From Gammaproteobacteria bacterium (lineage in GTDB: Bacteria > Pseudomonadota > Gammaproteobacteria > Xanthomonadales > SZUA-36): 64,000 bases of DNA. Made by a program: the position numbers and the translations under genes. Below, in pieces: positions 10,057 through 61,831 of this stretch. The stretch is taken from NCBI GenBank assembly GCA_030426265.1, contig JAUHYP010000003.1:1-64000 (forward strand). The letters are read 5' to 3'. The stretch's first letter is position 1, and the number at the start of each line of letters is the position of its first letter. The notes under the pieces are model-generated. The model searched no databases, was not told the DNA's origin, and worked only from the letters and a program-made list of their open reading frames with translations.

Positions 10057-10075
10057 GGCCTGACAACAGGCCCTA
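10054..10075. other. Perfect 9-bp hairpin between convergent genes, including both stop codons
   Basis: TAGGGCCTG-ACAA-CAGGCCCTA; no T-tract follows. Confidence 0.8.
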
Positions 10076-12991
10076 GCGCCGTTCGATCTCCTGCCAGGTG
10101 CAGCGGTCGCAGCCGTCGGCGGGCACCAGGAGCTCGCTGCCCCAGGACGTGGTGAACAGGCCGCCCCAGTGGATCACGAACAGGCGGTCGTTGTGGATCA
10201 CGCCGCGCGTGGTTCGGTCCATGCTGTAGCTGTCGTAGTACACCGCATTTTCCCGGGGGACGGAGGTCCAGTCGGCCAGGTCGGCCCGGCCGAGGCGATC
10301 CAGTCGCACCGCGCCCCGTTCACCCACGATTTCGTACATCAGCGCGCCCGTGGCCAGCCACGGATAGGACCAGGACGGGTCGGGGCTGTAGACGCCGTCC
10401 CGGGGCCCGTGCACGTCCACCGGCAGGCTGAACCGGTGCGGGCGTCCGATGGTGGCGTCGCCCGGCAGCCAGGTGAAATTGTGATGGGACTGGAGCACCG
10501 GCGTGGAGCTGCCACTGTCGCCGATCGTGTCCTCGTCCAGCAGGACCGGCGCGCCCGGGTCGGACACGTCGAACAGGCCGACCAGCACGCCCTGCTCGAC
10601 CGTGAATTCCTGGGGTGTCCCTTCGTTGACGTTGATCGCGTCCATGCCCACGCCCAGCAACAGGTCCGCGCCCACCGGGTGGAGGTACTCGGAATAGCCG
10701 GGAATCTCCAGGGCGCCGAGCACGAAGGGATCGTTCGGGTTCGACAGGTCGAGCGCGTACAGCGGGTCGATACGGCGGAAGGTCACCACGTAGCCCCGGT
10801 CGCCGAAAAAGCGCACGGCGTGCACGCTCTCTTCCGGCTTGCCGATGCGCTCCGGACGCTGGTCGTTGGGGAGGACGGCGCGCACGGGCAACAGGAAGTC
10901 GCCGCCCGCCTCGGTGCCGAGAACGGTCAACCGGTTGCTGCCCGCATCGCCCCAGCGCTCCTGCCACCAGCCCGAATCGCTGAGCACCCTGAGGGCGCCT
11001 TCGTGTTCGCTGAGGCGGAACGCCAACCGCCGGGGATCATGGCCGATGCCGCCCTCGATGGTTCCGGAGCCGGCGTATTCCACGCCCTTGTCGCTGATGG
11101 AGAAACGGTGCAGGTCCGTGTCCACGTAGGGCCCGAGCGTCACGCGGCCTTCGGGGGTGATCTCGACATGCTGTCGAGCGCCGGCCACCCAGACGCCTTC
11201 GGGCGTCGCATACAGCCCGTCGGCGCGGCCCAGGATGGCGGCGCTGACCGGGGGCGCCCCCAGGTCGTTGACGTCGAACACGCTGAGCACGTTCAGTTCC
11301 GCCGACAGGCGGTGGCCGGGCAGGGGCGGGATCATCACGCGGTCGGCGGTGACCAGTGTGTGCTCGGAACCGTCTCCCAGGCGGACCCGGGGCAGCAGCA
11401 TTTCGCCGTCCAGGGCCGCGAGGATGGCGCGGAATTCCTCCTGCGTGTAGGCCTCCTTCTGTTCTTCGGAGGGCAGGAACCGGGCCGCGATCGCGTGGAA
11501 ATCGGGTTGGTAACTGGTCAGCAGGAACAGCCGGTCCCCGATGAGCCGGCTGGAGGTGATCCGGCCGTCGATGACCAGTGAGACGTCGACCGTTTCGTCC
11601 GTTCCCTCACCATACTCCCAGGCCTGGACGATGGACCGGGACAGTCCGGTGCCCCAGCAGCTCGATTCCACCTGGCTGCCGAGGTAGAGCATGCGGTTCG
11701 TGTCCTCGGCGCCGGCGTGCAGGAACAGCCCTTCACCCTCGAGGGTGTGCTGGGGACGCTGGACCTCGGGGTAGGTGACCTCGTAGCGCGCTTCGAAGGA
11801 CGGGTTGCCGGCGCCCGGACTCACCTGCCAGCGGGTGATCGATTGCAGGTAATGGCCCTCGTCTCCCTCGCCGTCTTCCGCGGACTCGAAACGCGTTCCG
11901 AAATCCGCCGCGTCGATGCTGAACAGCAGGTCGGTTGTGGCCTTGACCAGGTCCGCCTCGTCCACGCCCGCTTCCTGCACGTTCGTGCCGGAAACCAGCT
12001 CGCCATTGCCGGCATCCGTCGGCGGCGCCGGGCTGAGGATGGGCGCCGGGGCGCAGATGATCGGCATGTCGTAGGTGGGCGAGGCCCGGTAGGCGCGGTC
12101 GAAGAAGTATTTCAGCGCGTCCGCCGAGGCCAGTTTGGCCATCGCGGCGGGGTGGGGGCGGCCCGATGGCGGATCCGAGAGCATCAGCTGCCCCGCATCG
12201 GGGCGGTCCCAGCTGCCGTCGCTGGTCTGCAAGGCGATGCGCATGCGGGTTTCGGTCTCGAACTGCAGGGACAGCTCGCCCGCGGGCTGGTGGTCCGAGC
12301 CGACCTGGGCGCAGGAGGGGCAGCTGCCCGTGGTGCGGGTCAGGTCGAAGCTCCGTTCGCCTTCGCGCCCTGCGCCGGAACGCCAGGTGGGCTCGCCGGC
12401 GGCGTCGTAGTGGTAGATCACCGCATAGACGTGTTCACCCTGGGTTTGCACCGACACGCCGTAACCGGTTTCGGCCGGGTCGTGGTAGATGCCGCTGTGG
12501 TCGTCCAGCGTGGGGGTGGAGGCGAACCGGAACGGCTGCAGGACACGCGAGCCTTCCGCCTCGCCCAGTTCCCACTGGACCTCGGCGATCTGTGGGTGCG
12601 GAAACGCGATGTCCAGCGACCCGACCACCTCGAAGCCTTCGACGGCGCCGGCGGCGTGGTCCCAGCGGTGGCGCATCAGGTCGCCCTGGAAGCGGTTGCC
12701 GTCCATGTCGGCGCCGGCCGTGTACCACACCGGGCTGCCGTCCTCGGCGTAGGTGTACCAGACCACGAACAGGAAATCGCCGATGCGGTTGAGGTCCCAG
12801 CCGCTGCCACCGTGGTCGGGGCTCCACCACAGGCCCTGGCGGAGCACGACGTCGGTCGGGCCCGCGATGCCGTTGCTGGCGCCGGGGTCGTCTGCCTGCA
12901 GGGGTGCGGCAAAAGACAGCGCCACTGCGAGTGCGGCGCCGATGCGTGTCGTGAACCCGCCGGGGCGGCGGGCCGTGTGCGTGAGCGGCAA
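10073..12991 (-). CDS. Secreted beta-propeller domain protein (PF09826-like) with two N-terminal aromatic-rich modules
   Basis: Long ORF; signal peptide 'TTRIGAALAVALSFAAPLQA'; 'NVQEAGVDEADLVKATTDLLFSI' is typical of beta-propeller DUF proteins; TTG start at 12991 proposed from the strong AGGAGG SD 6 nt upstream (the ORF track starts at 13054). Confidence 0.8.
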   Translation of the reverse strand: MPLTHTARRPGGFTTRIGAALAVALSFAAPLQADDPGASNGIAGPTDVVLRQGLWWSPDHGGSGWDLNRIGDFLFVVWYTYAEDGSPVWYTAGADMDGNRFQGDLMRHRWDHAAGAVEGFEVVGSLDIAFPHPQIAEVQWELGEAEGSRVLQPFRFASTPTLDDHSGIYHDPAETGYGVSVQTQGEHVYAVIYHYDAAGEPTWRSGAGREGERSFDLTRTTGSCPSCAQVGSDHQPAGELSLQFETETRMRIALQTSDGSWDRPDAGQLMLSDPPSGRPHPAAMAKLASADALKYFFDRAYRASPTYDMPIICAPAPILSPAPPTDAGNGELVSGTNVQEAGVDEADLVKATTDLLFSIDAADFGTRFESAEDGEGDEGHYLQSITRWQVSPGAGNPSFEARYEVTYPEVQRPQHTLEGEGLFLHAGAEDTNRMLYLGSQVESSCWGTGLSRSIVQAWEYGEGTDETVDVSLVIDGRITSSRLIGDRLFLLTSYQPDFHAIAARFLPSEEQKEAYTQEEFRAILAALDGEMLLPRVRLGDGSEHTLVTADRVMIPPLPGHRLSAELNVLSVFDVNDLGAPPVSAAILGRADGLYATPEGVWVAGARQHVEITPEGRVTLGPYVDTDLHRFSISDKGVEYAGSGTIEGGIGHDPRRLAFRLSEHEGALRVLSDSGWWQERWGDAGSNRLTVLGTEAGGDFLLPVRAVLPNDQRPERIGKPEESVHAVRFFGDRGYVVTFRRIDPLYALDLSNPNDPFVLGALEIPGYSEYLHPVGADLLLGVGMDAINVNEGTPQEFTVEQGVLVGLFDVSDPGAPVLLDEDTIGDSGSSTPVLQSHHNFTWLPGDATIGRPHRFSLPVDVHGPRDGVYSPDPSWSYPWLATGALMYEIVGERGAVRLDRLGRADLADWTSVPRENAVYYDSYSMDRTTRGVIHNDRLFVIHWGGLFTTSWGSELLVPADGCDRCTWQEIERR

Positions 12992-13090
12992 GGAGGACCT
13001 CCTGTCCTTGGACGGGTTGACCTGTCCCCCCAATGTTAGCATCCGCCGGGGCATTCGGCAGGCGCCGCGGGACGGCTGGACCGGCGCTGC

Positions 13091-60105: not shown

Positions 60106-61173
60106 ATGCACCGAATTCATCGTCGCCGCGCCCCGCGCGCCGCTGCCCTCGTACTTCCCTTCCTGCTGCTCGCTCCCATGGCCCATGCCGGCGACGTGGT
60201 GCTGCGCACCGACCTGGGCGACATCGAGATCGACCTGTTCGAGGAAGAAGCGCCCTTGACCGTGGCCAACTTCCTGGCCTACCTGGAAGCCGGCGAGTAC
60301 GAGCAGTCCGTCATTCACCGCAGCGTGGGGGGCTTCGTGATCCAGGGGGGCGGTTACCGGGTCAGCTACGAGGACGAACCCGAAGGCGAGATCCTGGCCG
60401 TCGAGACCTTCGACCCGGTACCGAACGAGCCGGGTATCTCCAACACCCGTGGCACCATCGCCATGGCGAAGATTTCCGGCCAGCCCAACAGCGCCACGAG
60501 CCAGTGGTACATCAACGTCGGCGACAACACGAGCCTGGATACCGAGGAAGAAGGCTACACGGTGTTCGGTGAAGTGGTCGGGGACGGCATGGACGTCGTC
60601 GATGCGATCAATGCCCTGCCGCGGTACAACCTGGGCGGGGCCTTTTCCTCGACGCCACTGCGCAATTACACCTACCCCGAGTCGGCGACCCTGGACAACC
60701 TGGTGCTGCTGGACGTCGAATCGGTTTCGGACTTCACGATCAACCCGGGCCTGAACGACGCCTGGTACAACCCGGAAACCAACGGCCAGGGCATGTTCTT
60801 CACCGTCTACCCGGACGGCGGGACCTTCTTCCTGTCCTGGTTCACCTTCGATGTCCAGCGTCCGGCGGACGGGGTCACCGCGACGGTCGGCGAACCCGGC
60901 CACCGCTGGATCACGGCCCAGGGCACCTTCAAAGGCAACACGGCCACGCTCACGGCCTACCTGTCCAGTGGTGGCGTGTTCGATGCTGCCCAGCCGGCGC
61001 CGGGAACGGCCAGCTACGGGACGGTCACCGTCACCTTCGAGGGCTGCAACAGCGCCCGGGTGGTGTACGACTTTCCGGATGCCGGGGTGTCGGGCGAAGT
61101 CACCGTCCAGCGCGTCGTGACCGACAACGTGCCGCTGTGCGAGGCGTTGCTGGAAGCAGCCGTCACGCAGTAA
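60106..61173 (+). CDS. Secreted cyclophilin-type peptidylprolyl isomerase with C-terminal aromatic-rich module
   Basis: Signal peptide; 'VVLRTDLGDIEIDLFEEEAPLTVANFLAYLEAGEYEQSVIHRSVGGFVIQGGGY', 'NTRGTIAMAKISGQPNSATSQWYINVGDN'; then 'DAWYNPETNGQGMFFTVYPDGGTFFLSWFTFD'. Confidence 0.93.
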   Translation: MHRIHRRRAPRAAALVLPFLLLAPMAHAGDVVLRTDLGDIEIDLFEEEAPLTVANFLAYLEAGEYEQSVIHRSVGGFVIQGGGYRVSYEDEPEGEILAVETFDPVPNEPGISNTRGTIAMAKISGQPNSATSQWYINVGDNTSLDTEEEGYTVFGEVVGDGMDVVDAINALPRYNLGGAFSSTPLRNYTYPESATLDNLVLLDVESVSDFTINPGLNDAWYNPETNGQGMFFTVYPDGGTFFLSWFTFDVQRPADGVTATVGEPGHRWITAQGTFKGNTATLTAYLSSGGVFDAAQPAPGTASYGTVTVTFEGCNSARVVYDFPDAGVSGEVTVQRVVTDNVPLCEALLEAAVTQ

Positions 61174-61240
61174 GCCGCGCGCTGAACCGCTGAAGCATTG
61201 CGCCGTGGGCGAATCCCGCGGCGCGGGGTACCATGCGCTC

Positions 61241-61831
61241 ATGGAACCCGAGAGCCAATCCGAACAGCCGATGAAGAAAAAGGGCGCCGGCACCGCCCGG
61301 GGCATCGAAACGATGTTCAAGAGCGTCTATCGCGTGCAGATGGACCTCACCAGCCTGGCCGACAACAAGGCCAACATGATGATCAGCATCAACGGGATCA
61401 TCATCTCCATCATCATCGCCGCGGTCGCGCCCAAGCTCGACAGCAACCCCTGGCTGCTGCTGCCCACCACGGTGCTGCTGCTGGGCACCATGGTGTCCCT
61501 GGTCTATTCCATCCTCGCCGCCAAGCCGCGGGTGAGCCCGCACGCCATCAGCCTGGACGACCTTCGCCACAGCGAAGGCAACCTGCTGTTCTTCGGTAAC
61601 TTCGCCCGCCTGGAAGAGCCCGAGTTCATCCGGGGGATGACCGAGTTGATGGAAGAGCGGGAGGAACTGTACGAGGCCATGATTCGCGACATCCATGGCC
61701 TCGGCAGCGTGCTCTCCCGGAAGTTCAGCCTGCTTCAGTCCGCCTACACCGTGTTCATGGTGGCACTGGTCGCCGGCGTGGTGTCCTTCATCGGCGTCTT
61801 CGCCTGGATCGTCCTCGCCGCCCCGCCCTGA
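61241..61831 (+). CDS. Pycsar effector-like membrane protein (DUF5706/PycTM family)
   Basis: 'MFKSVYRVQMDLTSLADNKANMMISINGIIISIIIAAVAPKLDSNPWLLLPTTVLLLGTMVSLVYSILAAKPRV...NLLFFGNFARLEEPEFIRGMTELMEEREELYEAMIRDIHGLGSVLSRKFSLLQSAYTVFM' fits the family by eye. Confidence 0.8.
   Translation: MEPESQSEQPMKKKGAGTARGIETMFKSVYRVQMDLTSLADNKANMMISINGIIISIIIAAVAPKLDSNPWLLLPTTVLLLGTMVSLVYSILAAKPRVSPHAISLDDLRHSEGNLLFFGNFARLEEPEFIRGMTELMEEREELYEAMIRDIHGLGSVLSRKFSLLQSAYTVFMVALVAGVVSFIGVFAWIVLAAPP

Follow-up and report, generated by a model that had tools for sequence, protein, structure and literature searches.

In the window, i.e., the whole stretch of 64,000 nucleotides that was analysed, an open reading frame at 60106–61173 begins with ATG at 60106, ends with a stop codon at 61171–61173, and encodes a protein of 355 amino acids. 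The protein consists of a signal peptide, a cyclophilin domain (PF00160) and a module of 142 residues, in that order. The signal peptide (MHRIHRRRAPRAAALVLPFLLLAPMAHA; 60106–60189, + strand) was read from the sequence, on the basis of a basic n-region, a hydrophobic core and an AHA end. A PpiA-like cyclophilin domain follows at 60190–60726 (+), with the PF00160 core at 60199–60624, as assigned by Pfam and motifs. When the protein was scanned against Pfam, cyclophilin was the sole domain found (residues 32–173, E 1.8e-36, 126.2 bits against a cut-off of 21.7), and the C-terminal stretch of about 145 residues had no match there or in NCBIfam. The catalytic Arg and the substrate-pocket motifs (HRS, GFVIQGG and SATSQWYIN) were present on inspection, and the core motifs HRS, GFVIQGG and SATSQW(F/Y)IN are kept across the aligned cyclophilin orthologues. 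Thus, the protein shares the signal peptide, the cyclophilin domain and the conserved core motifs with PpiA-type periplasmic cyclophilins, but it has about 145 extra residues that form the module, and it scored below the NCBIfam cut-off for the PpiA equivalog PRK10903 (115 bits against 308).

Directly downstream, at 61205–61831 of the window (+), lies a gene for a PycTM protein (Pycsar effector, PF18967, E 1.1e-27). It may be noted that the PycTM gene adjoins the cyclophilin gene in two more genomes of the genus (L049 and L060) and resembles a core gene more than part of a defence island. The neighbours of the cyclophilin gene, namely the genes for purU, the PycTM protein and a prolyl oligopeptidase, were found near cyclophilin only at loci of the same genus, purU being present near it also in L067. 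Since these neighbours are conserved only within the genus, no operon partner explains the module.

The original prediction had noted some 140 extra residues after the cyclophilin domain. These proved real, starting at about residue 208–210 and comprising the 142-residue module (60733–61158, +), which was delimited by the alignments A1/A2, the own-genome profile, the AlphaFold2 model and the conservation over 105 modules. The module ends four residues before the C-terminus of the protein (EALLEAAVTQ), and its key residues, in module numbering, are W11, W36, W59, C105, R127 and C136. The fusion is kept co-linear, with 46–59% identity, in 19 of the 39 genomes of the family; the tails after the module in these conserved fusions are of 0–5 residues, one of which was probably truncated where its contig ends. 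As the C-terminal stretch is co-linear with cyclophilin in 19 of 39 genomes and also occurs alone on many other proteins, it is no chance extension of the reading frame. Nor is the 142-residue module a cyclophilin extension. In the genus g12, the same cyclophilin lineage, nested with good support among the module-bearing ones, occurs without the module. The orthologous cyclophilins concerned (L074, L076 and L077) are reading frames of about 620 amino acids, where an unrelated long C-terminal part replaces the module.

A database search of the segment did not place it in any described cyclophilin subfamily, and no credible match was obtained in Pfam, NCBIfam or PDB sequences. When 22 isolated modules were compared with Pfam and NCBIfam, none had a significant match, the best hit of any single module being to DUF7538 (E 0.0086). 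The best match of the module profile with PDB sequences had an E-value of 0.14. Matches with DUF7538 and LtfC were rejected as short or below the cut-off, and so was a short match of one protein with CBM_56 (21.7 bits against a curated cut-off of 27, E 2.4e-4, 22 residues). Ig-like matches to antibody chains in the PDB (E 0.029 and up), obtained with one sequence, vanished with the profile. Plasmid and phage collections yielded no credible relative of the module, and thus no indication of carriage by either. Motif-text and topical searches of the open-access literature returned no description of the module. Judged by sequence, it is an uncatalogued domain that is missing from the protein-family databases searched.

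When the C-terminal segment was compared with its own genome by tblastn, 26 places appeared at E up to 1, five of them, besides the segment itself, below 1e-9. The reading frames extracted from these places showed two clear subfamilies. Subfamily A, the type carried by the cyclophilin, has the pattern GLNDAWYNP..G.G....VFP....WFTYD..RP......GHRWLTA.G. Subfamily B (G.WYDP...GEGF....YWFTYD..G...W) is shorter and often occurs in tandem. A third and divergent type, subfamily C, is found on the protein at 10073–13054 of the window. Alignment of A with B by hhalign gave a probability of 99.6% and a score of 139.6, the maximum for 100 column-shuffled controls being 19.4. The corresponding values for B and A against the modules of the 10073–13054 protein were 97.9% (score 72.9) and 78.8% (score 35.7), with a maximum of 18.5 for the 100 column-shuffled controls in each case.

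A profile, A2, was built from 22 modules of subfamilies A and B, with no row from the 10073–13054 protein. It detected 43 copies in about 30 proteins of the 3.6-Mb genome at E up to 0.01. The cyclophilin module matched with E 2.2e-36, being itself a row of A2, its paralogues having been found independently by tblastn; it carries the family pattern WY.P..G.G, W(F/Y)T(Y/F)D, W, G, G, C, R/K, C. Both modules of the 10073–13054 protein were detected (E 4.1e-11 and 2.3e-9). A resemblance between the cyclophilin segment and this protein (then delimited as 10073–12991) had been proposed earlier, and the profile, together with hhalign against shuffled controls, established it as significant. It was this profile search that related the two, as pairwise comparison alone would not have done so: BLASTP of the cyclophilin segment against the 10073–13054 protein gave only E 0.021. 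Modules within one genome are very divergent, with about 20–58% identity.

On the 10073–13054 protein, the first subfamily C copy lies at the N-terminus (12512–12853, − strand; profile A2, hhalign, coordinates from A5) and is followed by the second (12164–12511, −; profile A2, coordinates from A5), which has a CPSC motif. The partner of both is a beta-propeller domain, Beta_propel PF09826, at 10160–11992 (−; Pfam E 2.5e-75). Four subfamily C tandems were aligned in A5, i.e., that of the window (12164–12511, −) and those of contigs C65, C14 and C98 (at 186644) of the same genome. The second module of each has a CxxC (CPSC, CRQC, CPGC or CASC) that the first lacks. This CxxC is possibly a metal or disulfide site.

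Within the same family, 38 of 39 genomes gave matches with the profile, each positive genome having 4 to 50 copies, and in the order 153 of 250 genomes did so; copy numbers in the wider searches are lower bounds. The subfamily C profile was positive for 78 of 120 genomes of the order. Most of the members listed for the families f2 and f182 are without the module. Outside the order the module is rare: with the own genome included, 3 genomes among 274 in the class sample and 5 among 398 in the phylum sample were positive. The named relatives are metagenome-assembled Lysobacterales and one Woeseiaceae genome, which suggests Lysobacterales as the order.

The partner domains were tabulated across genomes, as had been suggested, and turned out to be those of many unrelated exported proteins. 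According to Pfam, partners in the own genome are cyclophilin, the PF09826 propeller, GH10 with CBM4_9, glucose/sorbosone dehydrogenase (GSDH), M14 carboxypeptidase, GH5, three M23 peptidases, a beta-lactamase-like domain, an M12B protease, a subtilase (S8), an esterase, cadherin/Big repeats and DUF4397; many partner regions match nothing in Pfam. Among 41 further subfamily A proteins, the commonest partners were NHL propellers (9), GSDH (5), endonuclease I (5) and GDSL hydrolases (3), the less common ones including Kelch, DUF3179, FGE, CAP and GH16. In 22 subfamily B proteins of the order, the partners include cupredoxins (3), GSDH (2), M14 (2), DUF1800 and others. Subfamilies A and B both occur on GSDH and on cupredoxin-type proteins, which suggests that A and B modules are interchangeable.

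Of 28 module proteins of the own genome that were checked, 26 passed a crude test for signal peptides, and the N-termini of the other two look signal-like by eye. Among the 41 subfamily A proteins, 37 have no more than five residues between the module and the stop codon, and in three of the other four the module is N-terminal. Copies of subfamilies B and C either follow the signal peptide directly or form the C-terminus; a single clearly internal copy in the own genome (C9:38514) departs from this.

A tree was built of 70 subfamily A modules, with partner labels assigned partly by eye; modules with the same type of partner tend to group together, but by no means consistently. Well-supported branches force at least three changes of the cyclophilin label, and one SGNH module falls inside a cyclophilin group. 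Moreover, modules of one genome that have unrelated partners appear as supported sisters, namely FGE and SGNH in G008 and CARDB and propeller in G015. This pattern indicates that fusions persist, and also that modules are transferred between genes or replace each other. The proposal of an uncharacterised, mobile and extracytoplasmic module, shared with the 10073–13054 protein and lying outside the cyclophilin fold, was borne out; the binding of carbohydrate, peptide or envelope components that had been envisaged for it is putative.

AlphaFold2 modelling of the module with seven sequences gave a pLDDT of 77.5 and a pTM of 0.75, with two poor loops. (A model of the tandem modules of the 10073–13054 protein, made with no alignment, was poor, at pLDDT 48, and was set aside.) The model has eight strands in an up-and-down meander and a C-terminal helix. 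The lectin-like or immunoglobulin-like beta sandwich that had been envisaged is therefore not what AlphaFold2 predicts, at moderate confidence; the nearest shapes are calycin-type barrels. The nearest solved folds were the barrels of TbpB, nitrophorins, avidins and NHBA, and the similarity was weak (best E 1.8e-3, TM about 0.5), so the resemblance is one of fold class.

Over 105 modules, conservation was 91% for W11, 87% for W36, 94% for W59, 97% for C105, 98% for C136 and 97% for R/K127. In calycins, the signature is a Trp of the first strand latched to an Arg or Lys of the last strand, and a long C-terminal helix is characteristic of most lipocalin-like members (PMC2954199). W11 lies in the first strand of the model and R/K127 in the last, and these conserved residues are predicted to form the calycin latch. 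A Cys105–Cys136 disulfide probably ties the helix to the barrel. The conserved residues of strand 3 (WFTYD) alternate, which places aromatic side chains on both of its faces; in the predicted structure, one of these is likely a functional surface. The module would thus share the eight-stranded meander, the C-terminal helix and the Trp/Arg-Lys pair with the calycin superfamily (lipocalins, avidins and FABPs; Pfam clan CL0116), but it has no significant match to any Pfam family and the fold match is weak. Moreover, most lipocalins are small proteins of a single domain, whereas the module forms the terminal part of dozens of enzymes.

The occurrence of about 43 copies on the ends of about 30 very different exported proteins suggests a shared, so far unstudied, address tag or anchor. 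Many unrelated exported passengers, terminal placement, tandems and exchange between genes make up the pattern of a localisation or export tag and not that of a substrate-specific module; the partners have no common substrate. The reading we lean towards, with confidence somewhat below even, is that the module is a promiscuous terminal domain of exported proteins which holds its passengers at the surface or in the matrix through a common ligand. A small eight-stranded calycin-like beta-barrel, predicted to be closed by the Trp-Arg/Lys latch and stapled to its C-terminal helix by the disulfide, would follow or precede a passenger that crosses the inner membrane by its own signal peptide. The module would then tether the passenger to the cell surface or the extracellular matrix, and we infer that it does so by binding, through its conserved aromatics, a shared component of the envelope or of the exopolysaccharide. 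In the case of the cyclophilin, this would station a proline isomerase at the site where exported proteins act.

A secretion signal would explain the terminal placement and the diversity of partners just as well, and the main rival to retention is that the module determines secretion or sorting, being a folded domain at the protein end that the T2SS or another outer-membrane exporter recognises, in a role like that of the C-terminal domains of T9SS cargo. This we regard as unlikely. The unrelated cargo, the near-strict terminal placement and the lack of a transmembrane tail after the module agree with it, and the T2SS secretin GspD was above the cut-off in 12 of 12 genomes tested; GspD is, however, non-discriminating, as these findings include G337 and G507, from f182 and f2, most of whose listed members are without the module. 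N-terminal and tandem modules exist, unlike in known C-terminal sorting domains, and the modules of one genome are very divergent. It is because copies also work N-terminally, and because of this strong divergence, that retention is favoured over a secretion machine. A terminal cap that only stabilises or protects exported proteins, with no specific partner, would account for the terminal placement, the disulfide-type Cys pair and the many partners tolerated, but the strongly conserved aromatics alternating on both faces of strand 3 suggest a functional surface, and we consider such a cap improbable.

A carbohydrate-binding module bringing enzymes to external polysaccharide substrates appears quite unlikely, if less so than the cap. 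The conserved aromatics would agree with it, the GH5, GH10 and GH16 partners would also suit a substrate-binding module, and one sub-threshold CBM_56 match was seen (above). For most partners, however, polysaccharides are not the substrate (cyclophilin, endonuclease I, sugar dehydrogenase, cupredoxin, DUF3179 and metalloproteases), and that match is short and below the curated cut-off, with isolated modules showing no significant match. Carbohydrate binding by individual copies is possible. Least probable of all is a lipocalin-like barrel for a hydrophobic small molecule, siderophore or haem that adds sensing or scavenging to each partner: the calycin signature residues and the barrel-like model point that way, but a single ligand would not be expected from forty-odd paralogues on unrelated enzymes, and the cavity is only putative.

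The C-terminal domains of T9SS cargo are folded, beta-rich and terminal, and are found on diverse secreted proteins; the T9SS belongs to Bacteroidota. The module resembles them as a folded, beta-rich terminal domain of diverse secreted cargo, but differs in having N-terminal copies as well. With GlyGly-CTERM/rhombosortase and similar C-terminal sorting regions (PMC3237569), it shares the occurrence of a homologous terminal region on many unrelated exported proteins per genome. Unlike GlyGly-CTERM, it is a folded domain of about 140 amino acids that is also N-terminal and tandem, and it reaches about 43 copies per genome against up to 13 (PMC3237569). The 60106–61173 protein lacks the combination of motif, transmembrane helix and basic C-terminus that defines GlyGly-CTERM.

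More tentatively than surface retention as such, we propose a dedicated, order-specific localisation system, where the calycin-like barrel would serve much of the exported proteome as an interchangeable address tag at either terminus, with a putative common receptor or ligand. Throughout much of the order, genomes carry the module by the dozen, on enzymes for the breakdown of sugars, peptides, cell wall and DNA. Because the main family libraries have no entry for it, each genome has dozens of exported proteins whose annotation is only half complete. Should it prove to be a common anchor or export tag, the surface proteome of these largely uncultured bacteria could be predicted, tested and re-targeted in a simple manner, and a calycin-type barrel would have a role not usually described for that fold.

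Module-bearing proteins also occur close together. On contig C26 of the own genome, four are encoded within about 16 kb (59600–76100), and two of these four start, by eye, with a CBM4_9-like stretch that Pfam did not find.
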